Translations under genes and position numbers: made by a program
Shown here: positions 19,322 through 33,912 of the stretch, piece after piece
How positions within the stretch are numbered: the first letter of the stretch is position 1
Layout of the letters: each line of letters begins with the position of its first letter
The notes under the pieces: generated by a model
The model's database searches: none
The model's input: the letters and a program-made list of their open reading frames with translations, nothing else
What the model was told of the DNA's origin: nothing
Assembly: GCF_001651805.1 (NCBI RefSeq)
Contig: NZ_CP015839.1
Span: forward strand, 3,596,001 to 3,660,000
DNA from: Marinobacterium aestuarii
Lineage (GTDB): Bacteria; Pseudomonadota; Gammaproteobacteria; Pseudomonadales; Balneatricaceae
Direction of reading: 5' to 3'
Length of the DNA stretch: 64,000 nucleotides

Positions 19322-20254
19322 TCAGTTGCGCTTGATGTACTGGTCCATGTTTTGCGGTGTTACCAGCTCAAATGGCACCCAGACTTTCTTGTCGACCGGC
19401 TCACCCTTGATCAGCTTGAGGCTGGTTTCAAGCGCACCGCGGCCCTGGGCCTCTGCGTTCTGAAATACGGTGACATCCAGATCACCGGCCTGCATGGCCG
19501 CCAGAGCATCGGCGGTAGCATCAATCCCGGACACGATCACACTGTCCATGCTGCGGCCGGATGCCTTAAGTGCCTGAATGGCGCCTATGGCCATTTCATC
19601 GTTGTTGGCGATAACGGCGTCAAACTCCAGACCCGCGGTCAGCCAGTTGGTCATAAGGTCGTTGCCTTCGGTGCGCATGAAATCTGCGGTCTGCTCTTCA
19701 ACGATGACCAGGCCACTGCACTCGGGGGTGGCGATCACATCATGGATGTCCTTGGTACGCTGCAACGCGGCGTTGTCGCCCAGGGTGCCCATCATGACCA
19801 CAACCTTGCCCTTGCCATTCATCAGCCGGCAGACTTCCTGGGTCTGCAGGGTGCCGGATTCGTCTTCGTTGGAGGCAACGAACGCCTGGCCATCAGGCAG
19901 CATGTCGACGTTGATCGGACGTCGACCCACATACACCAGTGGAATGCCCGCCGCGGCGGCATCATCGGTAATGGCCTGGGTAGCATCGGAATCCACAGCA
20001 TCAACGATGATGGCATCCACGCCCGAGGCGATAAAATTCTGCACCTGATTCAGCTGCATTCCGACTTCGTTCTTGGCATCTTCCATCTGCACATCCACGC
20101 CGGCCTCATTGGCCGAGGCTTCAATGCTGTTGCGCAGCACCGAAAGAAAGTTATCGTCAAAGCTGAACAGGGACACACCGATCTTGATGTCGGCAGCAAA
20201 CACCGAGCCCGACAGCAGTGTGGCGGCGATTGCGGTTAACAGTATTTTTTTCAT
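19322..20254 (-). CDS. Sugar ABC transporter periplasmic binding protein (left arm)
   Basis: Ribose-type periplasmic binding protein, 310 residues, with a signal peptide MKKILLTAIAATLLSGS cleaved after FAA or AFA. The Peripla_BP_4 pattern is clear: FDDNFL, QNFIASGVDAIIV, IPLVYV, VIANNDEMAIGAIQAL and VSGIDATADAL. About two-thirds of its residues match the binding protein at 27702, of equal length, by eye. No ABC ATPase or permease gene accompanies it, so it must use a transporter encoded elsewhere or serve another role. It is the last gene of a leftward set with the isomerase and dehydrogenase. Confidence 0.9.
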   Translation of the reverse strand: MKKILLTAIAATLLSGSVFAADIKIGVSLFSFDDNFLSVLRNSIEASANEAGVDVQMEDAKNEVGMQLNQVQNFIASGVDAIIVDAVDSDATQAITDDAAAAGIPLVYVGRRPINVDMLPDGQAFVASNEDESGTLQTQEVCRLMNGKGKVVVMMGTLGDNAALQRTKDIHDVIATPECSGLVIVEEQTADFMRTEGNDLMTNWLTAGLEFDAVIANNDEMAIGAIQALKASGRSMDSVIVSGIDATADALAAMQAGDLDVTVFQNAEAQGRGALETSLKLIKGEPVDKKVWVPFELVTPQNMDQYIKRN

Positions 20255-20343
20255 TGTTGTTATCCTCGAACGAGTGGATGAGCGTCAGTGACACTCGTGA
20301 TTAACCTTGTACGGGGTTTATCCCCGATTTCAAACTGGACAGC

Positions 20344-20366
20344 GCGCAGGGTTTCAACCCCTGCGC
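20344..20366 (-). other. Intercistronic hairpin, left arm
   Basis: GCGCAGGG and CCCTGCGC form a perfect 8-bp stem around a 7-base loop between the isomerase and binding-protein genes. It has no T-tract. The right arm has a different hairpin at the equivalent place (27602-27634). Confidence 0.6.
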
Positions 20367-20377
20367 CTGATCCACTA

Positions 20378-21319
20378 TTACCGGCTGATGCTTTGCTTGA
20401 GCGCATCGATCGATGACTGGATGCCTGCCTCGGTCGACATGGTGAAATCTTCCATCTCCAGACTGACCCAGTCGTTGTAGCCCTGCATGCGTACGACGGA
20501 GAAGAACTCTTTCCACCATTGCAGGTCGTGACCGGCGCCGACGGCGACGTAATTCCAGGCGCGGTTGGCGACATCATCGACCCCCTTGAGCTCCAGCAGA
20601 CCATTGATCTCGGCCAGGCCGCGCTCGATGCGGGTGTCCTTGCCATGCACATGGTGGATCGCCTCGCCCAGCGCCCGGGCCCCGGCGATGGGGCAGGCCC
20701 CTTTCCAGAACAGGTGCGACGGATCCAGGTTCATGCCGACCTTGGGGCCGACTTCATCGCGCAGGCGGAACAGGGTCTCGGGGTTCCATACCAGCATGGC
20801 CGAGAAGTTCTCCAGCGCGTATTTCTCGACACCGGCCTCGTTGGCGAGCTTCACCAGGCGCTGCCAGAGCGGAAAGGCGCAGTCTTCCCACTGATAGCGG
20901 TCACGTTCCGGCATCTCGTTGGGCCAGCTCTTGGTGTAGACGAGCCAGTTTGGCACGCTGTCACCCGGCGCTGCGGCCGGAAGTCCGGACATGGTCACGA
21001 TTTTCTTGACGCCGATTGCGCCGGCCAGGCGGACGGTCTGCTCCATTTCCCTGAGGTGACGTTCGCCCATTGCGCCTGGATCGAGGGGATTGGCCGAACA
21101 GTTCAGCGCGGCGATCTCGAGGCCGCGGGCTTCGATTTCATTCAGTTTTTTCTTCAGCAGGCCCCGGTCGGCCAGCAGTTCATCGGCACGAAAATGCGGC
21201 CCTGCGGACCAGCCGCCGCCGGTCATCTCCAGGCCTTCAACGCCCAGCGCTACACATTTGTCGAGCATGTCTGTGAAAGACAGGTCTCCCATTACATCGG
21301 TACAGATCGAAAGTTTCAT
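20378..21319 (-). CDS. Sugar phosphate isomerase/epimerase, TIM-barrel AP-endonuclease-2 fold (left copy)
   Basis: Xylose-isomerase-like TIM-barrel protein, 313 residues, probably converting a keto-sugar or keto-inositol produced by the neighbouring dehydrogenase. Metal-ligand regions ALENFSAM, GMNLDPSHLFW and HHVHGKDT are visible, as is EMTGGGWSAG early on. The protein differs from the copy at 26648 by only about six residues (by eye), and DNA identity stops at the gene ends. The two genes are in opposite orientation. ATGAAACTTTC begins the gene; the gap to the upstream dehydrogenase is 52 bases. Confidence 0.88.
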   Translation of the reverse strand: MKLSICTDVMGDLSFTDMLDKCVALGVEGLEMTGGGWSAGPHFRADELLADRGLLKKKLNEIEARGLEIAALNCSANPLDPGAMGERHLREMEQTVRLAGAIGVKKIVTMSGLPAAAPGDSVPNWLVYTKSWPNEMPERDRYQWEDCAFPLWQRLVKLANEAGVEKYALENFSAMLVWNPETLFRLRDEVGPKVGMNLDPSHLFWKGACPIAGARALGEAIHHVHGKDTRIERGLAEINGLLELKGVDDVANRAWNYVAVGAGHDLQWWKEFFSVVRMQGYNDWVSLEMEDFTMSTEAGIQSSIDALKQSISR

Positions 21320-21371
21320 GCGGCTTCACTCAACTAGAGACGTTGTGACTATTACATCAAGGGTGCCACTA

Positions 21372-22385
21372 TCAGCGCCCGTAAAACGCCGGGCACTCAG
21401 GCAGGCTGATCGGCTCAATCAGGCCGCTGTATTTGGCCTTGACGCAGGCATCCGCGGTGAGGGCAACCACATAGCCATCCCAGGCACTGGGGCCGTCCAT
21501 CTCGCCCCTGGCCGTGGCATTGATCCACTCCTGGAACTCGACATCAAAGGCATCGACAAAGCGGTCTTTCCAGTCCACAAGAATGCCATCGCTGGATTTG
21601 GCCTCAAGGCGCAGGTGTACACTCGCCGGCTCCGGCAGGCTGGCGATACCCTTCTCGCCGGTAACATGGCACTGGATGTCGTAGCCGTACTGGCAGTTGA
21701 CGAAGCTTTCGATACTGATATGCACACCCTGGCGGGTGCGCAGCAGGATCACGTGGGGATCCTGGTAGCCTTCCTGTTCACCCAGGTGGCAGCTGCGCGG
21801 CATGATAACCTGGGCGCTGACATAATCATCATCCAGCAACCAGCGCAGCACATCGTACTCATGCACACAGGAGTCGGTCAGCGCCATATCACCGCTGAAC
21901 CCCGGCGCTTCGGGTGCACGGTGAGCACAGTTGAGCGTCAGTGGCGCACCGATAGCGCCATCTGTCAGCACTTTTTTCAGCTGCCGGTACGAGCGGTCGT
22001 AACGACGCATAAAACCGACCTGCACCAGCGAGCGACCTGCGGCTATTTCGGCATCGACGATCCTGCGGCAACCCTCGGCGGTCACGGCCAGCGGTTTTTC
22101 ACAGAGTACCGGCTTGCCCGCAGCAATGGCGGCCAGCACAAACTCCTCATGGGTTGGCCCCCAGGACGCTACAATAATGGCATCGACTTCAGGCGCATTG
22201 ATAAGATCAAGACCCGTATCATATACCCGGGCTTCGATGCCCTCGCCCTGCACAACCCCGTGCGCCTGCTCGGCGTTCACATCAGTCACCGCAACAATCC
22301 GCGCCCCGGTGAGGTTACGCCTGATGCGTCTGATATGATCCTTGCCGATGGCACCGGTGCCGATAACGCCTATTTTCAACGTCAT
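21372..22385 (-). CDS. Gfo/Idh/MocA oxidoreductase, inositol-dehydrogenase-like
   Basis: NAD(P)-dependent sugar or cyclitol dehydrogenase. The Rossmann motif [12 protein letters not shown] lies at residues 6-17, the family signature CEKPLAVT near residue 100, and the catalytic-region motif [14 protein letters not shown] near residue 180. It resembles inositol 2-dehydrogenase (IolG) more than the 390-residue dehydrogenase of the right arm, so the two arms differ here. It is the first gene of the leftward set; its promoter must lie in the AT-rich region up to 23036. Confidence 0.88.
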
Positions 22386-23036
22386 GATAAGACCTGTAGG
22401 ATTTTTATTGGTTAGAGTTTTATGATTGAGAGTTTAATTCGAGAAAGCATTTAAATTCCGCATCTATAACAGCGAGTACATTTGATTTACTTTCAGTAAA
22501 AACTTAGAACATCTTTAAAAGATACTATTTGATACAGCATCTTTAAAAAATACATTTGGGCGTCAGAGAAGAGCGATGCGCCGGCTGCCCTGCTTCCCAG
22601 TTCCCACCGAAAACGCCGGGGTACTTGAAGTGAGGATTACTGCATGACATGACTGATATGGAGCGTTTGGGCTGCACAATAACGCAAGCTGTGCCGTAAA
22701 ATACTGCGCCATCGACAGAATACATTCAGGAATGACAGCCGTAGATGAAAACACATATAAATGCCGTGAGATGATCATGTGCTCATTCCTGTTATTATTT
22801 TTTATGGACCGCAAGGCCGTTATAGATCCTTACTTGGCAACAGAGACTGATTCAACGATAACAATGACAGAATCAATACAGGATTTGTTGCAGCTCTTTT
22901 CCCTGAGAAGCTGTATTGATTTAAGCACCCGACACTTGATAAAACAATATCACCAAGATACATTACATCAAAACGTATCAAACATGATTGCAGCATAAAT
23001 GATAGCTCTATCATTTATGCTGCAGGGAGATTATCG
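22386..23036. other. AT-rich divergent regulatory region
   Basis: About 650 bases between the left-arm dehydrogenase and the first LacI gene, far richer in A+T than its neighbours. It holds two copies of CATCTTTAAAA (around 22510 and 22539), one within the palindrome ATCTTTAAAAGAT, and the long inverted repeat at 22989. An 88-codon open frame (22732-22998, plus strand) has no recognised similarity and unusual composition; I do not call it a gene. Confidence 0.5.
22989..23024. promoter_or_regulatory. 36-bp inverted repeat upstream of LacI gene
   Basis: Two perfect 17-bp arms, TGCAGCATAAATGATAG and CTATCATTTATGCTGCA, flank a 2-base centre. It ends 12 bases before the ATG at 23037, overlapping or abutting the ribosome site. 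It could be an operator for autoregulation, or an mRNA hairpin limiting translation. Confidence 0.75.
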
Positions 23037-24080
23037 ATGTCACGCCCCACACTCTCCGATGTAGCCCGCCAGGCCGGCGTCGGCGTCGCGACCGTCGACA
23101 GGGTCATTAATGGCCGGGCGCGGGTGCGCCCCGAAACCTCGCAGCGTGTGCTGGAAGCGGCCGAAGCCATTGGCTTCAGGGCCACCGGCCTGATCCGCGC
23201 ACGCATTGATCAGCGTGCCGGGCAATTCAAACTGGGCTTTATCCTGCAGCGGCGCAGCGCCCCCTTCTATTCCCTGCTGGCAGACGCACTCACCGATGCC
23301 ACGCACGCCTGCAGCGCAATCCAGGGACAACCCGTGGTGGAGTTTCTCAACGAGCTGACACCCCAGGCGGTATCCGAGGCGCTGCTATCAATGGGGTCTC
23401 GGGTCGATGCCCTGGCCCTGGTTGCGGCCGATCATCCCAAGGTGCGGGACGCCATCGAGCAACTGCATGCCAGGGGTATTCCGGTGATCACCCTGCTCAC
23501 AGACCTCAGTGCGACGCACCGTGTCAGCTATATCGGCATCGACAACCGCCGTGCCGGGCGTACCGCCGCCTGGACCATCAGCCGCCTGAGCAAGGCACCG
23601 GGCAAGGTCGCGATTCTGGTGGGCAGCCACCGCTACCAGTGTCAGGAGCTGTGCGAGGTGAGTTTTCGCTCCTATTTCCGGGAAAATGCGCCAAAATTTC
23701 AGATCGTAGAAGACCTGATCAGCCTGGAAGACCCGGCCCTGGCGCAGGAAGCCACCTTCGATCTGCTGCAGCGCCACCCCGACCTGATCGGCATCTATGT
23801 TGCCGGTGGCGGTGCCGAGGGGGTGATTGCTGCACTGCGGGACAACCCGGCCACCCGCGGCATCATTACGGTCTGCAACGAGCTGACCGAACAGACGCAA
23901 TCCGCCCTGGTGGACGGTATTATCGACCTGGTGATCTCACACCCCCGCGAACGCCTGGCCGCCACCGCCGTGCAGGCCATGATCGATGCGCTGGAGGGTC
24001 GATCCTCTGGCGGCTCAGGCAGCGAGCAGAGCACACAGCATCTGCTGCCGTTTGATATCCATATCGCCGAGAATGTGTGA
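23037..24080 (+). CDS. LacI-family regulator (left arm)
   Basis: The N-terminal LacI helix-turn-helix TLSDVARQAGVGVATVDRVI is followed by the hinge and a periplasmic-binding-protein-like effector domain; 347 residues. The effector domain has FILQRRSAPFYSLLADAL and the IGIDNRRAGRTAAW segment. In this subgroup (LacI with VDRVING) ligands are often cyclitols or pentoses; the ligand is unknown here. It is divergent from the left-arm dehydrogenase, convergent with the second LacI gene (20-base gap), and has the 36-bp inverted repeat just before its start, which it may bind. Confidence 0.9.
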   Translation: MSRPTLSDVARQAGVGVATVDRVINGRARVRPETSQRVLEAAEAIGFRATGLIRARIDQRAGQFKLGFILQRRSAPFYSLLADALTDATHACSAIQGQPVVEFLNELTPQAVSEALLSMGSRVDALALVAADHPKVRDAIEQLHARGIPVITLLTDLSATHRVSYIGIDNRRAGRTAAWTISRLSKAPGKVAILVGSHRYQCQELCEVSFRSYFRENAPKFQIVEDLISLEDPALAQEATFDLLQRHPDLIGIYVAGGGAEGVIAALRDNPATRGIITVCNELTEQTQSALVDGIIDLVISHPRERLAATAVQAMIDALEGRSSGGSGSEQSTQHLLPFDIHIAENV

Positions 24081-24100
24081 GGGCACCAGGCGCTATCTGA

Positions 24101-25123
24101 CTATGATTTGCTCAGGTGCGACGAGCGCAGCACCAGCTGCCCCGGAAGCAGCAATTGCCGTACTGCGGAGTCCCCGGCGCCTAGCCTGCGAATGGCTTCG
24201 TCCACCAGCTGCTGCAGTGGCTGATGGTAGGTCGTCAGGCCATAGCTCGGTGAGGCGGCCAGTTCAATGTCGTCAAACCCCACCACGGCCAGCGGTATGG
24301 CCTCAGCGCGGCTGCGCAGCGCATCCAGCGCACCTATGGCCAGGATATCGTTCTCGCAGAACAGCGCCTCTAGCCGTGTATCCGGCGCCACGCTGTCCAG
24401 ATACCGATTCAGGGACTTGTAGCCATTTTCACGCGCATAATGCCCGGCATCCAGTACTGTGCTGAGCACCAGCCCGCGCTCGCGCAGACCTGCCTCGAAA
24501 CCATCCACGCGCTGTAGCTGAGTGGACTCGCTCACCGGCCCTGCCATGTAGCCAATACGCTGATAGCCCTGATCGGCCAGCAGCATGGCAATTTCATGCC
24601 CCGCACGATAGCCATCGGTAGACACAACCTGGATACCGGGGTTGTCACTGTTGCGATAGAGCACGATCAGTGGAATATGGCGAATATCCTGCGCCAGTCG
24701 CACCAGCTCGTCGGTCAGCACTGTGCCGAGGAAAATCAGCCCGTCAATCTGGAACTGATCCGCCAGCGTCAGCGCTGACTTGTAGCTGTACTCCGAGGTG
24801 ATGTTCAGCAACATGGGCATGTAGCCCCGCCGCTGCAGCTGGCCGCTGACCTCGTTCAGCACCTGCAACAGGTTGGGGTTTTCCATCTCGTCGACCACCA
24901 GCCCGACCATGTTGGTGCGCTTTTTGGAAAGGCTGCGCGCCAGCAAGTTGGGTTTGTAGCCCAGCGCCTCGGCAGCCCCGAGCACCCGCTCCAGAGCCCG
25001 GGGCGATATGGACGCACCGTCCGTAAAGGCCCGGGACACGGTCCATTTTGAGACACCGGCCCGTTCGGCGACATCAGTTGCAGTGACCTTGCGGTCGGCG
25101 GGCACAGAGGATTTTTTTGGCAT
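24101..25123 (-). CDS. LacI-family regulator (right arm)
   Basis: LacI-type repressor of 340 residues: the HTH VTATDVAERAGVSKWTVSRA, then YKPNLLARSLSKKRTNMVGL marks the hinge, followed by the ligand-binding domain with VVSTDGYRAGHEIA and VVGFDDIELAASPSYGLTT. The start at 25123 is preferred over 25216, where the frame is still open, because the family N-terminus begins shortly before the HTH. Four copies of a 16-bp palindrome lie between it and the divergent right-arm dehydrogenase; it almost surely binds these. Protein similarity to the left-arm regulator is low outside the fold. Confidence 0.92.
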   Translation of the reverse strand: MPKKSSVPADRKVTATDVAERAGVSKWTVSRAFTDGASISPRALERVLGAAEALGYKPNLLARSLSKKRTNMVGLVVDEMENPNLLQVLNEVSGQLQRRGYMPMLLNITSEYSYKSALTLADQFQIDGLIFLGTVLTDELVRLAQDIRHIPLIVLYRNSDNPGIQVVSTDGYRAGHEIAMLLADQGYQRIGYMAGPVSESTQLQRVDGFEAGLRERGLVLSTVLDAGHYARENGYKSLNRYLDSVAPDTRLEALFCENDILAIGALDALRSRAEAIPLAVVGFDDIELAASPSYGLTTYHQPLQQLVDEAIRRLGAGDSAVRQLLLPGQLVLRSSHLSKS

Positions 25124-25170
25124 TTGCAGACGACACCGTTGACATCCTTTCGAGAGTTGTCGTATTTTAC

Positions 25171-25186
25171 TTGCAACCGGGTGCAA
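25171..25186. promoter_or_regulatory. LacI operator O1
   Basis: TTGCAACCGGGTGCAA, a near-perfect palindrome, 48 bases upstream of the regulator start, so it probably serves autorepression. Confidence 0.85.
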
Positions 25187-25210
25187 TCGCACCTTTTTAT
25201 TGGCAGCGCG

Positions 25211-25226
25211 TTGCACCCGGTTGCAA
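25211..25226. promoter_or_regulatory. LacI operator O2
   Basis: TTGCACCCGGTTGCAA, the exact reverse complement of the O1 sequence, 40 bases from it. Confidence 0.85.
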
Positions 25227-25269
25227 ACAATGCTCGATCACAACAATCGGGCATTTTTAATCTCCTGAT

Positions 25270-25285
25270 TTGCAACCGGGTGCAT
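25270..25285. promoter_or_regulatory. LacI operator O3
   Basis: TTGCAACCGGGTGCAT, one mismatch to O1, 59 bases from O2. Confidence 0.8.
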
Positions 25286-25335
25286 TACCGGTCCGGGGGG
25301 GACAAAATTACCCCTCGGTATTTTCAGGAAAAACT

Positions 25336-25351
25336 TTGCACCCGAGTGCAA
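25336..25351. promoter_or_regulatory. LacI operator O4
   Basis: TTGCACCCGAGTGCAA, a perfect palindrome apart from its centre, 66 bases after O3 and 70 bases before the dehydrogenase start. It is the copy best placed to block the rightward promoter. Confidence 0.85.
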
Positions 25352-25421
25352 GAAGACTGGATAGCCTGACTGCAGGCATCCAGAAGCCAGCATCAGCGAC
25401 ATAACAAGAAGAGGTTTAGAC

Positions 25422-26594
25422 ATGTTGAACGGCGAAAAGAAAATTGCACGGCCGCTGCGCTGGGGCATGGTGGGTGGTGGCCGTACCGGCCAGGTAGGCT
25501 ACAAGCACCGCACCGGTGCCCTGCGAGACGGCACCTACCAATTGCTCGCCGGCGCCTTCGATCTGGATGCAGACCGCGGCCGTGATTTCGGTACCAACCT
25601 GGGTGTGGCCGAGGATCGCTGCTACGCGACCTACCAGGACTTCATTGCAGGCGAGACTGCACGGGAAGACGGCGTCGAAGTGGTGTCGATCGCAACGCCC
25701 AACTTCACCCACTTCGAGATCACCATGGCGTGCCTGAAGGCGGGCCTGCATGTAATCTGCGAAAAACCGCTGTTCTTCAGCGTCGCCGAGTGCGACGCGG
25801 TGGCGAAGCTGGCCGCGGACAAGGGCCTGATCCTGGGCGTAACCTACGGTTTTACCGGCCACCCACTGGTGCACCAGATGGCCGCCATGGTCAAAAAGGG
25901 CATGCTGGGCGACATCCGTATCGTCGATATGCAATATACCCACGGCTTCAATTCGGGCGACGATGTGGGGGCGGGCGAGGCGGTGAAATGGCGCACCAAC
26001 CCCGAAACGGCCGGCCCGACCTTTGTGCTGGGCGATATCGGCACGCACCTCTACTACCTCAGCGAGGTGGTGCTGCCCCATATGAAGATCGAAAAACTGC
26101 TCTGCGACCGCAAGGCCTTCATTGCCACCCGCGCCCCGCTCGAAGACCATGCCACCGTGCTGACCCACTACGATAACGGCGCCCGCGGCCGCCTCTGGGC
26201 GTCGTCGGTGAACGCGGGCAACATGGGTTCCCAGCGTTACCGCTTCGTCGGCTCCAAGGCTTCCCTCGAATGGTCCGATGCCCACCCCGACCAGCTGATT
26301 TACGAAGTACAGGGGGAACCGAACCGCACCCTGCACCACGGCATGCCCTACCTTGAGGACGAAAGCCTCGCGGCCGACCGCATGGGCGCGCTGCACACCG
26401 AAGGCCTCGGTGACAGCTGGGCCAACATCTATCTGTGGATTGCCCAGGCCATCGACGCCAGGATGCGCGGCGACGAAGCCTTCCTGCAAACACACCATTA
26501 CCCAGGCATTGAAGCCGGCACCGAAGGCGTGCGCTGGCTCGAGAACTGCGTGCGTTCGGCTGACGCAGGGGCGGCATGGGTCGAGTACAACTAA
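25422..26594 (+). CDS. Gfo/Idh/MocA oxidoreductase (right arm)
   Basis: Sugar or cyclitol dehydrogenase, 390 residues, longer than the left-arm enzyme. Rossmann motif GMVGGGRTGQVGYKH starts near residue 15, ICEKPLFFSVAECDAV is the family signature, and VLGDIGTHLYYL holds the catalytic-region His. It belongs to the longer MocA-like group with YTHGFNSGDD and a C-terminal TEGVRWLENCVRSA. It heads a rightward set with the isomerase and binding protein and is controlled by the four operators upstream; AAGAGG lies before its ATG. Confidence 0.88.
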   Translation: MLNGEKKIARPLRWGMVGGGRTGQVGYKHRTGALRDGTYQLLAGAFDLDADRGRDFGTNLGVAEDRCYATYQDFIAGETAREDGVEVVSIATPNFTHFEITMACLKAGLHVICEKPLFFSVAECDAVAKLAADKGLILGVTYGFTGHPLVHQMAAMVKKGMLGDIRIVDMQYTHGFNSGDDVGAGEAVKWRTNPETAGPTFVLGDIGTHLYYLSEVVLPHMKIEKLLCDRKAFIATRAPLEDHATVLTHYDNGARGRLWASSVNAGNMGSQRYRFVGSKASLEWSDAHPDQLIYEVQGEPNRTLHHGMPYLEDESLAADRMGALHTEGLGDSWANIYLWIAQAIDARMRGDEAFLQTHHYPGIEAGTEGVRWLENCVRSADAGAAWVEYN

Positions 26595-26647
26595 GCACTC
26601 AGTCAGCCGCGCACCCATAACAATCGATAACAAGAGAGCGACCCAGT

Positions 26648-27589
26648 ATGAAACTTTCCATCTGTACCGATGTAATGGCCGACCTGTCTTTCACAGACAT
26701 GCTCGACAAATGTGTAGCGCTGGGCGTTGAAGGCCTGGAGATGACCGGGGGCGGCTGGTCCGCAGGACCGCATTTTCGTGCCGATGAACTGCTGGCCGAC
26801 CGGGGCCTGCTGAAGAAAAAACTGAATGAAATCGAAGCCCGCGGCCTCGAGATCGCGGCGCTGAACTGTTCGGCCAATCCCCTCGATCCAGGCCCCATGG
26901 GCGAACGTCACCTCAGGGAAATGGAGCAGACCGTCCGCCTGGCCGGCGAAATCGGCGTCAAGAAGATCGTGACCATGTCCGGACTTCCGGCCGCAGCGCC
27001 GGGTGACAGCGTGCCAAACTGGCTCGTCTACACCAAGAGCTGGCCCAACGAGATGCCGGAACGTGACCGCTATCAGTGGGAAGACTGCGCCTTCCCGCTC
27101 TGGCAGCGCCTGGTGAAGCTCGCCAACGAGGCCGGTGTCGAGAAATACGCGCTGGAGAACTTCTCGGCCATGCTGGTGTGGAACCCCGAGACCCTGTTCC
27201 GCCTGCGCGATGAAGTGGGGCCCAAGGTCGGCATGAACCTGGATCCGTCTCACCTGTTCTGGAAGGGCGCCTGCCCCATCGCCGGGGCCCGGGCGCTGGG
27301 CGAGGCTATCCACCATGTGCATGGCAAGGACACCCGCATCGAGCGCGGCCTGGCCGAGGTCAATGGTCTGCTGGAGCTCAAGGGTGTTGATGACGTCGCC
27401 AACCGCGCCTGGAATTACGTCGCCGTCGGCGCCGGTCACGACCTGCAGTGGTGGAAGGAGTTTTTCTCCGTCGTACGCATGGTGGGCTATAACGACTGGG
27501 TCAGCCTCGAAATGGAAGACTTCACCATGTCGACCGAGGCGGGTATCCAGTCGTCAATCGATGCCCTGAAGCAGACCATCAGCCGATAA
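26648..27589 (+). CDS. Sugar phosphate isomerase/epimerase (right copy)
   Basis: A TIM-barrel isomerase/epimerase of 313 residues that is almost the same protein as the left copy at 20378. Differences noted by eye: G11A, A to P and A to E in the 80-105 stretch, I to V, Q to V and S to T towards the end. The metal-site segments GMNLDPSHLFW and HHVHGKDT are unchanged. The flanking DNA on each side does not match the left copy, so the homogenised tract is the gene itself. It is cotranscribed with the dehydrogenase (53-base gap). Confidence 0.88.
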   Translation: MKLSICTDVMADLSFTDMLDKCVALGVEGLEMTGGGWSAGPHFRADELLADRGLLKKKLNEIEARGLEIAALNCSANPLDPGPMGERHLREMEQTVRLAGEIGVKKIVTMSGLPAAAPGDSVPNWLVYTKSWPNEMPERDRYQWEDCAFPLWQRLVKLANEAGVEKYALENFSAMLVWNPETLFRLRDEVGPKVGMNLDPSHLFWKGACPIAGARALGEAIHHVHGKDTRIERGLAEVNGLLELKGVDDVANRAWNYVAVGAGHDLQWWKEFFSVVRMVGYNDWVSLEMEDFTMSTEAGIQSSIDALKQTISR

Positions 27590-27601
27590 CACAGTTGCAG
27601 G

Positions 27602-27634
27602 ATGACCGGCAGGTTTAGACCTCTCGCCGGTCAT
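27602..27634 (+). other. Intercistronic hairpin, right arm
   Basis: ATGACCGGC and GCCGGTCAT form a perfect 9-bp stem with a 15-base loop between the isomerase and the binding-protein gene. It has the same position as the left-arm hairpin but a different sequence, so the placement is probably functional. Confidence 0.6.
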
Positions 27635-27701
27635 ACCAAGACAAAAAAGGCAGCTGCCTCTGTGCCTAAAGCACCCCAATGACTACAAGGAAAACAATAA
27701 A

Positions 27702-28634
27702 ATGAAAAAATTCACCCTCGCAACCCTCGGTGCCTGCATGCTTGCGGGCTCTGTTGCCGCGGCCGAACTGAATATCGGCGTCGCAATGTCGACCTTCGAT
27801 GACAACTTCCTGACGGTGCTGCGTACCGGCATGGAACAGCATGCCAAGGACGCCGACGTTTCCCTGCAGATCGAAGACGGCAAGAACGAGGTCGGCACCC
27901 AGCTGAACCAGATTCAGAACTTCATCGCCTCCGGTGTGGATGCCATTATCGTCAACCCGGTGGATACCGATGCAACCGTGGCGATGAGCGATGATGCCGC
28001 CGCCGCCGGTATTCCGCTGGTATACGTCAACCGCCAGCCGATCAACGTCGACATGCTGCCCGATAACCAGGCCTTTATTGCCTCCAACGAAGTCGACTCC
28101 GGCACCCTGCAAACCCAGGAGGTTTGCCGTCTGCTCGGCGGCAAGGGCAAAGTCCTGGTACTGATGGGAGCACTCACCGATCAGGCCGGTATTCAGCGCA
28201 CCAAGGACATCCATGACGTCATCGCCACCCCCGAGTGCTCCGGCATGGAAGTCGTGGCGGAAGAAACCGCCGAGTGGCAGCGCACCAAGGGCAACAACAT
28301 CATGACCAACTGGCTGTCATCCGGTGTCGAGTTTGATGCGGTGATTGCCAACAATGATGAAATGGCCATAGGCGCCATCCAGGCGATGAAAGCGGTCGGC
28401 ACCGATATGGACAGGGTTGTGGTGGCCGGTATTGACGCCACCCAGGATGCCCTGCAGGCCATGAAAGCCGGGGATCTGGACGTCACCGTCTTCCAGGATG
28501 CCGCCGGTCAGGGCAGTGGCGCCATTGATGCGGCCATCAAGCTGGCCCGCAATGAGGACGTCGACCAGAAAGTCTGGGTGCCCTTCAAGCTGGTGACCCC
28601 CGCCAATATGGCTGAATACCTGAAACTAAACTGA
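27702..28634 (+). CDS. Sugar ABC transporter periplasmic binding protein (right arm)
   Basis: Second ribose-type binding protein, 310 residues, signal peptide MKKFTLATLGACMLAGSVAA, then ELNIGVAMSTFDDNFL. Motifs QNFIASGVDAIIV, IPLVYVNRQPINVDML and VIANNDEMAIGAIQAM parallel the left-arm protein, which it matches at roughly two-thirds of positions. Signal peptide and surface regions differ most, which fits paralogues tuned to related ligands. As in the left arm, no ATPase or permease gene follows; the terminator-like hairpin at 28661 closes the unit. Confidence 0.9.
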   Translation: MKKFTLATLGACMLAGSVAAAELNIGVAMSTFDDNFLTVLRTGMEQHAKDADVSLQIEDGKNEVGTQLNQIQNFIASGVDAIIVNPVDTDATVAMSDDAAAAGIPLVYVNRQPINVDMLPDNQAFIASNEVDSGTLQTQEVCRLLGGKGKVLVLMGALTDQAGIQRTKDIHDVIATPECSGMEVVAEETAEWQRTKGNNIMTNWLSSGVEFDAVIANNDEMAIGAIQAMKAVGTDMDRVVVAGIDATQDALQAMKAGDLDVTVFQDAAGQGSGAIDAAIKLARNEDVDQKVWVPFKLVTPANMAEYLKLN

Positions 28635-28694: not shown

Positions 28695-29524
28695 CACATT
28701 ACCCAGCCATGTCATATTTTAATGTCCCAGCCTTCCCACAGCCCTTTACTTCAGTTACCCGGTCTGTCTTTTTTCTTGAATCGGCTCGACCTAATCAACG
28801 CTGTCTCTATTTAGCTACGAACCCAGAGGTAATCTTGTACCTGAAGACTCCTGCGCGCTGAGAAACAATCTAAAAATGGAAAATTCAGACGTTTTCTTTC
28901 GTACCCAAAACCACAACAGATGCCGATACCTTGCTCGCTCGCGCCTCGACGTTAATGACACTCAGCCTGCAAAGTGTCGTACCGGCCAATATTTAATCGA
29001 AGACAAAACTCATCTAAACCATCGTAGCGCCACTAACAAGCCCGCCTGATAGAATAATTTTACCCATAAAAAACAAATACTTGAAAAACAAGCATGATTA
29101 TACCTCTTTACCAAAGCATCCAAAGACTGAATGATTTTCATGAATTTATCTAATTTTAATTCAACATCAGGCACTGCGTTCAATAATGACAAAACCCATT
29201 TAAAACAGCTGTTTAAATCATTATTAACACAAGAAACTTCACCTATAGATGATTTTTATTGAACTTTTATAATCAAGCCGTTGCTTCTCCCAGCAATGGG
29301 GGGATTTGCTCTATATTTTGCAACTATACTTGCCTCATTATTCAAATGAACGAAGGTCACGGAGGCAGGGATGGATCCCGTTCGTCAGCCCCTATTCTGC
29401 AATTTCTTCAAATACCTGTGCGCCGGTTTAGCACCGGCGAGAGCATCCCCTGCCCGGCTGAGCTCCCATCGCCGTGCAACCTGTCCCTGTGCTGCGCTAC
29501 CCGTATCAACACGGAGTTTTTGAC
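28695..29524. other. AT-rich gene-free stretch
   Basis: About 830 bases without a convincing gene on either strand. It is clearly richer in A+T than the flanks, and the short open frames in it look random. It has a near-palindrome around AAACAGCTGTTT (about 29205) and a small hairpin with arms CGCCGGT and ACCGGCG (29421-29439). The last part presumably holds the promoter of the cytochrome gene. Confidence 0.5.
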
Positions 29525-32029
29525 ATGAAGTCGATCAGAACCCCCTTTGTTTTAGGCATGCTGGCACTGCTGGTATCGTCCTGTTCAACCCAGCAAAGCC
29601 TCTGCGGCGAAGGCGCCGGCAAGGTGCGGGACGAGGCACTCTGTGTCGGCCGCTCGGCCGACTCCCTGCAGGGTGCGACGGAAGACTACTACGCCGACAT
29701 GGATTACGGCATCAGCAAGGATCCGGTGGAAATCGCCCGCCGGCTCGACCCCTATGTACCCGGCATTTCGCCTGAGGAAGCCCGACAGGCCATTGTGCGC
29801 GGGCGCAACAACTGGGTGGTCTGGACGGCAGGCAACGATGCCCTCTGGAACAAGATATCCAACATCAGCGTCGGCAATCTGGATTTTCTCAAGACCGTAT
29901 CGAACCACCCCAGCCTCAAGTTCAGCCGCGACAACCGCTGGCAGTACCTGGGCGTGGTGAACGAGCCCTGCTACATCAAGGGCGATGCGCCACGCCAGGA
30001 TCGCTACGGCCTCTGGCTCGATAGGCGCGACCCATCCTGTGGCCCCGACCCGTTTGAAAACGAAGACAGGTACCCCGGTGTCAAGATTGGTGCCCGCGGC
30101 GACAATATCCCGGCCGGCTCCTACTATGGCTACGGCACCGGCATTGTCGGCCTGCGCCTCTTCCCCAACCCCGACTTCGACGCCCAGGCCGAGGCCAAAT
30201 GGGATCCGGAGCGTTACTACAATGACCGCAGCTACTATGCCAGCAAGGATCTGGTGAAACCCTATCGCGTCGGCATGTCCTGCGGCTTCTGCCATGTGGG
30301 CCCCAACCCCTCCAACCCGCCGGCGGACCCGGAACATCCGAAGTGGGAGAACCTCAACTCCAACCCCGGCGCACAGTATTTCTGGGTTGACCGCATTTTC
30401 ATGTGGGACGCAGACCCCAGCAGCTTCGCCTATCAGCTGTTCCACACCTCCCGCCCCGGCGCCCTGGATACCTCGCTGATTTCCTCCGACTACATCAACA
30501 ACCCGCGCACCATGAACGCCATCTACAACCTGGGCGCACGCATGGATGTGGCCAGCCGCTACGGCCATGAAGAGCTCGCCGGCGGTGGTCTCAACAACCG
30601 CCAGTTCAACGACCTGGCGGTTGTGCCAGCCTCCAGCCCGCTGCAACAGTTTTACCAGGCGCCGGACCAGGTACTGACACCCCGGGTGCTCAAGGACGGG
30701 GCCGACTCGGTGGGGGCGCTGGGTGCCCTGAACCGGGTCTATATCAATATCGGCCTCTTCAGTGAAGAGTGGCTGCAGCACTTCCGTGCCCTACTGGGCG
30801 GCAAGAAAATCACCCCGTTCGAGATCGAGGTGGCCCGCAAGAACTCCAGCTACTGGAACGCCAACGAAGCCCAGACGCCTGATGTAGCGCTGTTCTTCCT
30901 CGCCTCGGCCCAGCCCGATTACCTGGCCAATGCCCCCGGTGGCGCGGACCATATGAGCCAGGATGCGAATCAGCTGGAGCGAGGTAAAACCGTGTTTGCC
31001 GATACCTGTGCCCGCTGTCACTCCAGCAAGCTGCCGGAGAAAACCGCCGAGTTCTTCCCTGACAAGGGCTGTGTCAGCGGCAACTACCTGCAGTGCTGGA
31101 GCCGCTACTGGACCTGGACCCAGAGCATGGAGTTCAAGTCTCTGATGCGCCCCATCGTCCAGTCCGACGACTTCCTGGACAACAACTTCCTCTCCAGCGA
31201 AATGCGCGTACCGGTCACGCAGCTGGAAACCAACGCCTGCAGCCCGCTGGCCACCAACGGCCTGGACGGCAACATCTGGGACAACTTCACCTCCGAGTCC
31301 TACAAGGGTCTGCCGGCCGTCGGCACCCTGCGGGTACAGCACCCCTACAGCGGCGAGGTGCGCGACTATGTGATGCCAGACGGTGGTCGCGGCTACACCC
31401 GCCCCGCCTCCCTGGTCAGTGCCTGGTCCAGTGCACCCTTCCTGCTTAACAACAGCCTGGGCGAGTTCAAGTGGTCAGGATCGGTGGAAGACCGCATGGC
31501 CTCCTTTGACGATGCCATCGAGAAGCTGCTGTGGCCGGAAAAACGTGAAGGCGACTTCAGCGTTGTCACCCGCTCCGGCAAGACCCACCCCGGGATGATC
31601 GACAGAACGCCGGCCTCCAGTTACCTGCGAGTAGACACCGGCTACCTGCCGGACTTCCTGCAGACCCTGCAGGGCCCGCTGAGCCGCTGGCTGCCCTGGC
31701 TGTTTGGTGAAGCCGGCGTAGAGATAGGGCCCATCCCGGCCGGCACGCCCATCAACCTGCTGTCCAATATCGACATGGAGGAGCGCAGCAAGGTTCTCAA
31801 AATTCTGCTCAAGGCCAAGAGGGACCTCAAGGCTCTGCCGGAAAACGCCACAGACGCAGATGCCCGCCGCGTCTTTGCCAACCTGGTTGATCCGCTGCTG
31901 GACGTCAGCAAGTGCCCGGATTACGTCGTCAACAAGGGCCACTACTTCGGCACCGACTACCTGGTGGATGAGCAGGGTCTCGATGACAGCGACAAACAGG
32001 CTCTGATCGCCTTTTTGAAAACCTTCTGA
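29525..32029 (+). CDS. Large di-haem cytochrome c lipoprotein
   Basis: An 834-residue exported electron carrier or oxidoreductase subunit. The N-terminus is a lipoprotein signal with lipobox VSSC near residue 20, so it is probably anchored by lipid outside the inner membrane. Two c-type haem motifs, CGFCH (about residue 255) and CARCH (about residue 495), are far apart, recalling the spacing in MauG/RoxA-like di-haem proteins, but I cannot place it in a named family. Downstream neighbours are a GMC flavoprotein 17 bases away and a patatin. Supposition: it accepts electrons from the flavoprotein. The start at 29525 is preferred over 29474 because it begins the signal. Confidence 0.85.
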   Translation: MKSIRTPFVLGMLALLVSSCSTQQSLCGEGAGKVRDEALCVGRSADSLQGATEDYYADMDYGISKDPVEIARRLDPYVPGISPEEARQAIVRGRNNWVVWTAGNDALWNKISNISVGNLDFLKTVSNHPSLKFSRDNRWQYLGVVNEPCYIKGDAPRQDRYGLWLDRRDPSCGPDPFENEDRYPGVKIGARGDNIPAGSYYGYGTGIVGLRLFPNPDFDAQAEAKWDPERYYNDRSYYASKDLVKPYRVGMSCGFCHVGPNPSNPPADPEHPKWENLNSNPGAQYFWVDRIFMWDADPSSFAYQLFHTSRPGALDTSLISSDYINNPRTMNAIYNLGARMDVASRYGHEELAGGGLNNRQFNDLAVVPASSPLQQFYQAPDQVLTPRVLKDGADSVGALGALNRVYINIGLFSEEWLQHFRALLGGKKITPFEIEVARKNSSYWNANEAQTPDVALFFLASAQPDYLANAPGGADHMSQDANQLERGKTVFADTCARCHSSKLPEKTAEFFPDKGCVSGNYLQCWSRYWTWTQSMEFKSLMRPIVQSDDFLDNNFLSSEMRVPVTQLETNACSPLATNGLDGNIWDNFTSESYKGLPAVGTLRVQHPYSGEVRDYVMPDGGRGYTRPASLVSAWSSAPFLLNNSLGEFKWSGSVEDRMASFDDAIEKLLWPEKREGDFSVVTRSGKTHPGMIDRTPASSYLRVDTGYLPDFLQTLQGPLSRWLPWLFGEAGVEIGPIPAGTPINLLSNIDMEERSKVLKILLKAKRDLKALPENATDADARRVFANLVDPLLDVSKCPDYVVNKGHYFGTDYLVDEQGLDDSDKQALIAFLKTF

Positions 32030-32046
32030 TCCCGGAGTGGCGAACC

Positions 32047-33912
32047 ATGAGCACTGAATATGACTATATAGTGGTGGGGTCCGGTGCCGGTGGCGGCACC
32101 GTCGCCGCCCGGCTGGCGGAAAATGGCTGCACTGTGCTGGTACTGGAAGCCGGCGGTGACCCACGTACCCTGAGTGGCGGCGACGCCCTGAGCGACGACA
32201 ACCGCCTGCCGGAGGACTACGACGTACCGGTATTTCACGCCATTGCCAGTGAAAATCGTGCCATGAAGTGGGACTTCTTCGTACGTCACTATGGCGATGA
32301 TGCCCAGCAGAAAAAGGACCCCAAATACACCGCCAACTACGAAGGCGAAGATGTCGATGGCGTACTTTACCCCCGCGCCGGTTGTCTTGGGGGCTGTACG
32401 ACCCACAACGCCATGATCACCGTCTGCCCCCACAATGACGACTGGGAACATATAGGCCGCATCACCGGCGACGATTCATGGAACGCCCGCAACATGCGGG
32501 GCTACTTCCAGACACTCGAAAACTGTCACCACCGCCCGGATCATCGCCTGTTAAGCCGCCTGTCCAATCCCAGCAAGCACGGCTGGAAGGGCTGGCTGCA
32601 CACCGAGAAAGCCATCCCCAAGAGCGCACTGGGCGATGGCGACCTGGTCAGAACCCTGGTCAGTTCGGTAGAAAGCGCTTTCTCGCAACTGTCCGAACCC
32701 TTCAAGCGCGGCGAATGGCTGCGCCAGGGCAGCGGCGACCCCAACGACTGGCGCCTGGTGAAGGACAATGCCATCGGGCTGCGCTATCCGCCGCTGGCGA
32801 CCAAAAACCACCAGCGCATGGGCGCGCGGGAGCGTCTGCTTGATGTGCAGCAGGCCCACCCCGACAAACTGCATATCGAACTGGATGCCCTGGCGACCCG
32901 CGTTCTGTTCGATGACGATAACCGCGCCATTGGTGTCGAATACCTCAAGGGTGCTCGCCTCTACCGGGCACATTGCCAGCCCCACGGCGAGAGCACCGAC
33001 AAGCGTCAGGCCTTCGCCAGCAAAGAGGTTATTCTGGCCGGTGGCGCCTTCAATACACCCCAGCTGCTGATGCTGTCCGGCATAGGCCCGCAGGACGAAC
33101 TGCAGCGCCACGGCATTGCCGTGCGGCACAATCTGCCTGGCGTCGGCCAGAACCTGCAGGATCGCTACGAGGTGGGTGTGGTCAATCGCATGAACTTCGA
33201 TCACTGGGAGGTACTCAAAGGCGCCAAATATGCCAAGGGCGACCCACAGTACAAGGAATGGGACAAGAAACGCTCAGGCGTCTATACCAGCAACGGTGCC
33301 GTGCTGGCGGTAATCAAGCGCTCCATGCCCCAGCGCCCGCTGCCAGACCTGTTCTGCTTTGCCCTGCTGGGGCTGTTCAAGGGCTATTTCCCCAGCTATT
33401 CAAAGCTGCTGGCCGAACACCTGAACTATCTGACCTGGGCCATCCTCAAGGCCCATACCAACAACACCGCAGGCAGCGTAACGCTGCGCTCCAGTGATCC
33501 CAGGGACAAGCCCCATATCAATTTTCGTTACTTCGACGAGGGCAACGACGCCAGTGGCGAAGACCTGGAATCCGTGGTCCAGGGCGTCAAGTTCATCCGC
33601 AGCCTCACCCAGCCGCTGAAGGACAAGGGGCTGATCGCCGCGGAGGAGCTGCCCGGTGACAGCGTTCAAACCGACGAAGAAATACGCGAATTCATCCGCA
33701 ACCAGGCCTGGGGCCACCACGCCTCCTGCACCTGCCCGATCGGCGCCGACGACGACCCCATGGCCGTGCTGGATAGCCAGTTCCGCGTGCGGGGTGTCAC
33801 TGGCTTGCGGGTGGTCGATGCATCGGTGTTTCCGCGCATTCCCGGCTTCTTTATCGTTACCGCAATCTACACCGCGGCAGAGAAGGCCGCCGATGTGATT
33901 CTGAGTCGCTAA
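32047..33912 (+). CDS. GMC-family FAD oxidoreductase
   Basis: Glucose-methanol-choline flavoprotein, 621 residues. The FAD motif VVGSGAGGGTVAARLAENG lies at residues 9-27; the GMC signature region LGGCTTHNAM is near residue 115, GGAFNTPQLLMLSGIG near 335, and the active-site His region WGHHASCTCPIG near 560, then VVDASVFPRIPGFF. No signal peptide is visible, so it acts in the cytoplasm or is exported by an unusual route, which complicates an electron transfer to the lipoprotein cytochrome. The substrate is unknown; it resembles the cellobiose/gluconate or alcohol-type GMC enzymes only in outline. Confidence 0.88.
   Translation: MSTEYDYIVVGSGAGGGTVAARLAENGCTVLVLEAGGDPRTLSGGDALSDDNRLPEDYDVPVFHAIASENRAMKWDFFVRHYGDDAQQKKDPKYTANYEGEDVDGVLYPRAGCLGGCTTHNAMITVCPHNDDWEHIGRITGDDSWNARNMRGYFQTLENCHHRPDHRLLSRLSNPSKHGWKGWLHTEKAIPKSALGDGDLVRTLVSSVESAFSQLSEPFKRGEWLRQGSGDPNDWRLVKDNAIGLRYPPLATKNHQRMGARERLLDVQQAHPDKLHIELDALATRVLFDDDNRAIGVEYLKGARLYRAHCQPHGESTDKRQAFASKEVILAGGAFNTPQLLMLSGIGPQDELQRHGIAVRHNLPGVGQNLQDRYEVGVVNRMNFDHWEVLKGAKYAKGDPQYKEWDKKRSGVYTSNGAVLAVIKRSMPQRPLPDLFCFALLGLFKGYFPSYSKLLAEHLNYLTWAILKAHTNNTAGSVTLRSSDPRDKPHINFRYFDEGNDASGEDLESVVQGVKFIRSLTQPLKDKGLIAAEELPGDSVQTDEEIREFIRNQAWGHHASCTCPIGADDDPMAVLDSQFRVRGVTGLRVVDASVFPRIPGFFIVTAIYTAAEKAADVILSR

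Follow-up and report, generated by a model that had tools for sequence, protein, structure and literature searches.

The 64,000-nucleotide (nt) window analyzed here is part of the genome of Marinobacterium aestuarii (a single contig of 5.19 Mb) and contains a mirror-image sugar module, in which two convergent genes for LacI-family regulators stand tail to tail between two arms that each encode a dehydrogenase, an isomerase-like enzyme with a triosephosphate isomerase (TIM) barrel fold, and a periplasmic binding protein. We conclude that this module probably consists of two separately evolved and separately regulated catabolic operons of one general kind, namely a LacI gene divergent from a dehydrogenase–isomerase–binding protein series, which were joined tail to tail at their regulators and between which the isomerase gene was recopied. 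As part of this best explanation, the joining predates the split of the window strain and Marinobacterium profundum. The mirror-image appearance would then arise mainly because the isomerase was recopied from one operon to the other.

The eight genes were found at the coordinates, on the strands, and in the order that had been given in the first-pass annotation, and Pfam and NCBIfam assigned them to the families named there. Its description of the left-right similarities also proved accurate. The isomerases are nearly identical (98.1% at the amino acid level and 95.6% at the nt level), and the binding proteins are about two-thirds identical (68.7% and 72.5%, respectively). The dehydrogenases share 28% over 300 aligned residues and belong to different subgroups, with the left enzyme close to IolG and the right enzyme grouping with the structures 7d5m and 3dty, and the regulators are dissimilar (25% over 318 aligned residues).

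The module is not a chance arrangement: M. profundum (genome G029, contig C133) has the same two-armed module, with module and flanks collinear and with module genes that are 92–98% identical to those of the window. The left isomerase of M. profundum is about equidistant from the two window copies, with 93.3% identity to the right and 92.7% to the left one. Two isomerase copies (E 1e-60) were detected in 2 of the 116 genomes of the family, which are the window genome and M. profundum. A search for isomerase relatives gave 203 confirmed cases, and all counts out of 80 loci given below refer to the best 80 of these 203; among them, two isomerase copies occur only at the M. profundum locus (L050). 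The two-armed form was thus seen in these two species.

Trees were calculated for the binding proteins, the left-type dehydrogenases, and the isomerases, and the regulators and the right dehydrogenase were compared by identity and family. In a tree of 35 binding proteins, the left proteins of the window and M. profundum group with the protein of a genome from another family, G416 (support 99/97), and the right proteins group with those of two species that have single right arms, M. rhizophilum and M. nitratireducens (99/98), with other clades of the genus in between. A 23-row subset of this tree, from which long branches and far outgroups were left out, gave the same left and right groupings with support of 93/85 and 99/96; deep branches of the binding-protein trees are weakly supported. 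Constraining the four binding proteins of the window and M. profundum to one clade was rejected by the approximately unbiased (AU) test (p-AU 6.2e-5), as was a single clade of all six binding proteins (p-AU 5e-9). On these sequence grounds, the two binding proteins of the module are not sisters but paralogues of old standing. In the dehydrogenase tree, for which 22 of 32 distant rows were dropped at random, the left dehydrogenase forms a clade with G416, a metagenome-assembled genome of SZUA-272 (L110), and two Halomonadaceae (99 in the Shimodaira–Hasegawa-like approximate likelihood ratio test, SH-aLRT), apart from the dehydrogenase of a third related cluster of the same genome (cluster 3, at about 3.31 Mb). 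The binding-protein and left dehydrogenase trees therefore indicate separate histories of the two arms.

This agrees with the occurrence of each arm on its own in related genomes. In 67 of the 80 loci, the gene immediately upstream of the isomerase encodes a right-type dehydrogenase (at least 78% identity), and in nine a right-type LacI (at least 60%) is present as well. Eight of these nine have no left arm in the compared stretch (two Zobellella, four Halomonadaceae, M. rhizophilum, and M. nitratireducens); the ninth is the two-armed locus of M. profundum. A binding protein (at least 60%) follows directly downstream in five of the nine, the M. profundum locus included. When the complete genomes of M. 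rhizophilum (G030) and M. nitratireducens (G028) were searched with the left dehydrogenase at E 1e-90, only a 58% identical relative of the cluster-3 type was retrieved. Among 390 genomes of the order, the left dehydrogenase was found at E 1e-140 or better in three, namely the window genome, G416, and G427. G416 has a complete left arm that stands alone (LacI 52%, dehydrogenase 72%, isomerase 69%, binding protein 77%), and the G427 match lies in a cluster-3-like context. The arms thus largely cluster with separate single-arm operons, the left one through G416 and the right one through the single right arms of Marinobacterium.

Other combinations of related genes were also seen. In Litchfieldella and Halomonas (L053 and L056), a right-family isomerase is followed by a different ABC (ATP-binding cassette) transporter and a left-type dehydrogenase (76–78%), and in L053 a 37% identical isomerase comes after the latter, so that parts of both arms meet there in another arrangement. 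A widespread cluster in Rhizobium (L088:7766-11927 and similar loci) comprises a right-type dehydrogenase, the isomerase, further TIM-barrel genes, ABC genes, and a LacI gene; keyword searches of the open-licence literature gave no tested function for it.

Judged from the distribution of differences along the sequences, recent gene conversion is the best explanation of why the two window isomerases are nearly identical. Within the window, the synonymous divergence (dS) of the left and right isomerases is 0.17, which is lower than that between the species for the right copies (0.26), the left copies (0.45), or the window left and M. profundum right copies (0.24). The paralogues are therefore closer to each other than to their orthologues in the window; in M. 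profundum, where the left and right copies differ by a dS of 0.51, this is not so over the whole gene. The other orthologues of the module have dS values of 0.15–0.36 between the two species, and the left and right binding proteins a dS of about 1.

The differences are arranged in tracts. In nt 1–60, the window left isomerase has no difference from the M. profundum left copy (100%) and differs at three sites from its own right copy (95%). In nt 61–600, it shares 98.0% with the window right copy and 84.1% with the M. profundum left copy. In nt 841–939, it shares 97.0% with the M. profundum left, 92.9% with the M. profundum right, and 85.9% with the window right copy. Between the left and right copies of M. 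profundum, there are 98 differences over the 540 sites of nt 61–600 and 4 over the 240 sites of nt 601–840, and their longest common run of third-position polymorphisms, 35 sites, was reached in 0 of 5000 permutations. In a split test, in which each permutation repeated the search for the split point, the best split points were located at about nt 801 for the window left-right pair (0 of 1000 permutations), at nt 66 for the two left copies (1 of 1000), and at nt 606 for the M. profundum left-right pair (0 of 1000). The remaining pairs gave 42 of 1000 (window right and M. profundum left), 172 of 1000 (both right copies), and 588 of 1000 (window left and M. profundum right).

A quick tree of 84 isomerases united the four copies of the window and M. 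profundum in one clade (SH-aLRT 94). In a tree of 32 isomerases, chosen by hand from the 84, both window copies and the M. profundum right copy form one clade (98/85), with the M. profundum left copy in an unresolved position beside Zobellella and Halomonas. Most simply, the right copy would have overwritten the left one in the window lineage, and an independent conversion would have taken place in M. profundum. In M. rhizophilum and M. nitratireducens (L047 and L048), the isomerase groups with those of Rhizobium and Agrobacterium, and the dehydrogenase and binding protein are 87–94% like those of the right arm. A replacement of the isomerase from alphaproteobacteria in these two species is suggested by the trees; a clade of all six Marinobacterium isomerases was not rejected (p-AU 0.097).

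The two arms are likely regulated separately, as far as their intergenic sequences tell. A 16-bp even palindrome with a central CG occurs four times in the right intergenic region. Three of these sites are kept with few changes in four Marinobacterium species, and two to four such sites per locus (up to two mismatches) were present in all ten right-type loci that were scanned. In the whole genome, exact pattern matches are confined to this region, and sites with one mismatch are also found at 2.33 and 2.61 Mb; the genome-wide search gave 37 matches, compared with 7 for the reversed control pattern. The right LacI has a helix-turn-helix domain above cut-off, and the palindromes between this regulator and the neighboring operon are of the even central-CG type. 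According to PMC4052901, LacI-family motifs are mostly even palindromes with CG at the center, and autoregulation applies to more than three-fourths of the local LacI regulators. With up to two mismatches, a scan without shuffled control found no right operator in the left or the two cluster-3 intergenic regions; one operator common to both arms was ruled out by the lack of a right-type match in the left region. The left arm has a different candidate palindrome (17-2-17) just upstream of the left LacI start, whose core occurs once in the window and is without central CG. A 93% version with 14-nt arms is present at the same place in M. profundum.

Neither arm encodes an ATPase or a permease. 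The permease family PF02653 matched at 19 places in the genome and at none in the window, so that a permease hidden in the window was ruled out. Cluster 3 encodes a third homologous binding protein (73% identical to the right and 71% to the left one) together with a CUT2 ATPase, a permease, an IolG-type dehydrogenase, two TIM-barrel isomerase-like proteins, and a LacI regulator. We surveyed ten hand-picked genomes for the permease only and found a cluster-3-type permease (at least 86%) in all five genomes that have an arm-type orphan binding protein (G000, G028, G029, G030, and G416). At E 1e-60, it was not found in G033 or G112. The simplest inference is that both orphan receptors may dock on the cluster-3 core. 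In M. rhizophilum, contigs C24, C7, and C25 carry three cluster-3-type permeases, each 97–98% identical to the copy of the window genome, and the copies on C7 and C25 have different binding proteins encoded no more than about 6 kb away; the cores are thus alike and the receptors differ. An open reading frame (ORF) resembling an IS5-type transposase by eye (L026:5530-6570) was noticed about 3.5 kb from the third cluster.

With regard to substrates, inositol stereoisomers or close relatives appear likeliest from the sequence and fold comparisons. The best PDB relative of the left dehydrogenase is 3mz0 (E 7e-116), annotated as inositol 2-dehydrogenase/D-chiro-inositol 3-dehydrogenase, and the cluster-3 dehydrogenase passes the curated IolG model NF052679 with 564.8 bits. 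The right dehydrogenase is most similar to 7d5m/7d5n (E 2e-146) and 3dty (E 1.7e-139), all deposited as oxidoreductases; we take 7d5m to be an Azotobacter inositol-dehydrogenase homologue. The genome also has a canonical iolB (370 bits, cut-off 205). The best PDB relative of the right binding protein is 4yo7, and its structural model, with a mean predicted local distance difference test (pLDDT) score of 91, is likewise nearest to 4yo7, a structure that presumably holds myo-inositol, followed by ribose- and glucose-binding proteins; the myo-inositol-binding protein of Caulobacter ranks 30th. Both isomerases pass PF01261 (AP_endonuc_2, xylose-isomerase-like TIM barrel) with 99.9 and 99.2 bits (gathering cut-off 31.1), and an alignment with 28 relatives revealed many invariant acidic and histidine residues. 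The only PDB match by sequence is 2zds, deposited as a putative DNA-binding protein, and with the IolE cut-off missed, an identification as IolE or as a PDB enzyme by sequence was discarded. In a Foldseek search with the isomerase model (mean pLDDT 76), SCO6571 was nearest, followed by the keto-glucal hydratase AtHYD (8ro4); 3-epimerases and the dehydratase AsbF come next, whereas IolI ranks 15th and IolE 43rd.

The second place of AtHYD in this ranking suits a different chemistry, in which the arms serve glycosides or anhydrosugars that are oxidized to 3-keto sugars and then subjected to elimination, hydration, or isomerization by the TIM-barrel enzyme. The operons of Agrobacterium tumefaciens and B. 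smithii likewise combine oxidoreductases with TIM-barrel 'sugar phosphate isomerases', according to PMC10628242, and the right dehydrogenase has a weak similarity to levoglucosan dehydrogenase (67 bits, cut-off 650). We regard this chemistry as a serious alternative but the less likely one, given that the left and cluster-3 dehydrogenases are near or within IolG, that canonical iolB is present, and that the Agrobacterium orthologue seems to belong to a different operon, in which no GlycDH was seen by eye. As far as this inspection by eye goes, the Agrobacterium OGE/HYD operon is not the same operon.

For two joined operons with a recopied isomerase, the following sequence of events can be envisaged. 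Each arm would be induced by its own ligand, and each binding protein would capture its own ligand and dock on the one CUT2 ATPase/permease core about 0.3 Mb away. Each dehydrogenase would oxidize one ring hydroxyl with nicotinamide adenine dinucleotide (NAD+), and a common metal-dependent TIM-barrel enzyme would isomerize, dehydrate, or hydrate the keto product, which would then enter a central route. Two regulated entry routes, each with receptor and dehydrogenase, would thus feed one keto-isomerase step, plausibly for inositol isomers. If the isomerase has the same job in both arms, conversion between its copies would therefore be tolerated or favored, and receptor, dehydrogenase, and regulator would stay specialized. 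Tentatively, we suggest a mix-and-match principle, with receptor, dehydrogenase, and regulator specific to each arm for two related cyclitols or sugars, an isomerase kept interchangeable by conversion, and one transport core encoded at a distance. Exchange between the isomerase copies may be what the inverted layout serves. The first-pass annotation proposed that the arms specialized on two related sugars or cyclitols and that parts were replaced. This is still plausible in view of the two regulators, the two binding-protein clades, and the two dehydrogenase subgroups, one of them near IolG; the inverted duplication from which it was derived is not supported.

Several observations weigh against the picture of two joined operons with a recopied isomerase and its suggested function. 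The single left arm is known from one genome, G416, whose isomerase forms a very long branch. L053 is included among the single right arms, yet a left-type dehydrogenase (78%) is located about 4 kb downstream of it, and in the metagenome-assembled L110 only 0.2 kb separate a left-type dehydrogenase (74%) from the right-family isomerase (86%) that follows it. Given L110, the left arm may have had a right-family isomerase from the start. The binding proteins beside the right-type arms of two Halomonas (L054 and L055) lie outside the right binding-protein clade; from these, receptor and arm are not strictly tied, and receptors seem to be exchanged between such operons. As for conversion, a plain run test was not significant for the window left-right pair (760 of 5000 permutations), and in nt 841–939 it is the window right copy that deviates from the others (85.9% to both the window left and M. 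profundum left copies), which makes the left-type reading of this segment less sure. With respect to transport, G031, G032, and G074 carry the cluster-3-type permease without an isomerase arm (E 1e-60), and G112 has the isomerase and other ABC genes without a cluster-3-type permease at the same threshold. Finally, on the chemical side, the left dehydrogenase stays with 510.9 bits under the cut-off of 540 for NF052679 (inositol 2-dehydrogenase/D-chiro-inositol dehydrogenase), the isomerases reach 24.4 and 22.9 bits with the IolE model TIGR04379 (cut-off 290), and the isomerase model is closer to a keto-glucal hydratase than to IolI or IolE.

The near-identity of the window isomerases could in principle be inherited, with near-identical copies passed on to both species without conversion in the window lineage and with foreign sequence taking over the left copy of M. 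profundum along its first two thirds. That copy indeed has 71 private differences among 148 polymorphic sites, and its nt 61–600 are at most 84.1% identical to any compared sequence. However, no donor was present among 74 isomerases of other loci, the window left copy has a left-type 5' end (nt 1–60; three sites) and a partly left-type 3' end, as fits the partial overwriting of an older left copy, and the left-right split at nt 801 was not matched in any of 1000 permutations. We therefore consider such a replacement unlikely. It is more unlikely still that the extra isomerase copy does no more than raise gene dosage, in arms with unlinked functions: copies of conserved transport genes also recur in the genus, with three permease copies at 97–98% in one genome, but in both two-armed species each isomerase copy is part of a separate operon that has a dehydrogenase, a receptor, and a regulator to itself. 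The origin proposed in the first-pass annotation, an arm copied inverted in place long ago with later divergence and with replacement of dehydrogenase and regulator, would account for the same gene order in both arms and for the homology of binding proteins and isomerases, but it is very improbable, as the left-right pairs are not sisters overall (rejected for the binding proteins by the AU test above, and with 28% and 25% identity for dehydrogenases and regulators), as each arm occurs alone elsewhere, and as the two window isomerases have diverged less from one another than either has from its orthologue in M. profundum.

The features of the module are compiled in Table 1. The stop codons of the convergent LacI genes are 20 bp apart (24080/24101). 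For the right LacI, a GTG-started ORF of 371 amino acids runs into its own operators, and the ATG at 25123 (340 amino acids) is the better start. Beside the right arm, at 29474-33912, there is a large ORF with c-type heme motifs together with a GMC-like oxidoreductase (families assigned by eye); this region is about 96% identical and collinear in M. profundum and probably lies outside the module.

Table 1. Features of the two-armed module in window coordinates (aa, amino acids).
Feature	Position	Strand	Evidence or remark
Left binding protein (CUT2 type, Peripla_BP_4), 310 aa	19322..20254	-	PF13407 E 1.1e-54, 186.1 bits (gathering cut-off 35.1)
Left isomerase-like TIM barrel (AP_endonuc_2), 313 aa	20378..21319	-	PF01261 E 2.5e-28
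Presumed gene-conversion tract in left isomerase, about ORF nt 66-800, right-arm type	20520..21254	-	Ends approximate, 3' end less sure
Left dehydrogenase, Gfo/Idh/MocA, near IolG subgroup, 337 aa	21372..22385	-	NF052679 510.9 bits (cut-off 540)
17-2-17 inverted repeat, candidate autoregulatory operator of left LacI or leader hairpin	22989..23024	.	Arms 100% complementary
Left LacI-family regulator, Peripla_BP_4 type sensor, 347 aa	23037..24080	+	PF00356 E 2e-13, PF13407 E 1.9e-36
Right LacI-family regulator, 340 aa from ATG	24101..25123	-	PF00356 E 1.7e-11, PF00532 E 5.6e-23 (on longer ORF)
Candidate right-arm LacI operator 1	25171..25186	.	Exact palindrome-pattern match; identical in four Marinobacterium species
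Candidate right-arm LacI operator 2	25211..25226	.	Exact match; kept in four species, one base changed in one
Candidate right-arm LacI operator 3	25270..25285	.	One mismatch; not kept in M. nitratireducens
Candidate right-arm LacI operator 4	25336..25351	.	Exact on one strand; kept with changes in four species
Right dehydrogenase, Gfo/Idh/MocA, 390 aa	25422..26594	+	PF01408/PF02894
Right isomerase-like TIM barrel, 313 aa	26648..27589	+	PF01261 E 3.9e-28; closest folds SCO6571 and AtHYD
Right binding protein (CUT2 type), 310 aa	27702..28634	+	PF13407 E 2e-55, 188.6 bits (gathering cut-off 35.1)

If two operons were indeed joined here, a mirror-image module can arise without local duplication when two stand-alone operons meet and the conversion of one enzyme mimics a recent inverted duplication. 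The module also offers a testable case of which parts of an operon specialize (receptor, dehydrogenase, and regulator) and which are kept common (the isomerase and perhaps the permease), and should the mix-and-match principle be true, Marinobacterium would show which parts of catabolic operons diverge and which stay common. The isomerase is widespread, with 83–97% identity in the best 80 of the 203 alpha- and gammaproteobacterial loci, and keyword searches of the open-licence literature found no tested function for it. Keyword searches of the same literature, with at most 20 titles each, gave no described example of the mirror architecture, with no search aimed at the mirror layout itself.

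Among known systems, the inositol operons are the obvious comparison. Corynebacterium glutamicum has several paralogous inositol dehydrogenases, different dehydrogenases take different inositol isomers, the operon oxiC-cg3390-oxiD-oxiE includes a putative sugar phosphate isomerase, and IolI of Bacillus subtilis converts 1-keto-D-chiro-inositol to 2-keto-myo-inositol, as described in PMC9603128. The module resembles the B. subtilis iol and C. glutamicum operons in the several paralogous dehydrogenases per species and in the operon with a putative isomerase. It differs from inositol dehydrogenase operons in that the isomerase occurs twice, that each arm has its own LacI and orphan binding protein, and that the IolE model is not reached. 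The single-arm operons of Halomonadaceae, Zobellella, and Marinobacterium, in which LacI, right-type dehydrogenase, and isomerase are combined, share genes, gene order, and operator type with the right arm, but they show no left arm in the compared stretches. The dehydrogenase–isomerase–ABC clusters of Rhizobium, Agrobacterium, and Rhodobacterales also have a right-type dehydrogenase directly upstream of the isomerase, whereas those inspected have their own ABC genes (about 25–38% identity), further TIM-barrel genes, and one arm. The A. tumefaciens GlycDH/OGE/HYD, B. smithii levoglucosan, and PUE puerarin operons, which work by oxidation, elimination, hydration, and reduction, are alike in pairing oxidoreductases with TIM-barrel 'sugar phosphate isomerases', with AtHYD as a fold neighbor. 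Arms with LacI and an orphan binding protein are not described for them in section 7 of PMC10628242, and the left dehydrogenase of the module is, in contrast, nearest to the inositol subgroup. Concerted evolution by gene conversion is known from prokaryotes, where paralogues are more alike within a genome than to their orthologues (PMC6053082). Compared with the cases covered there, the conversion proposed for the window differs in that it would concern one gene in two otherwise different, inverted operons and would have occurred recently and in tracts.

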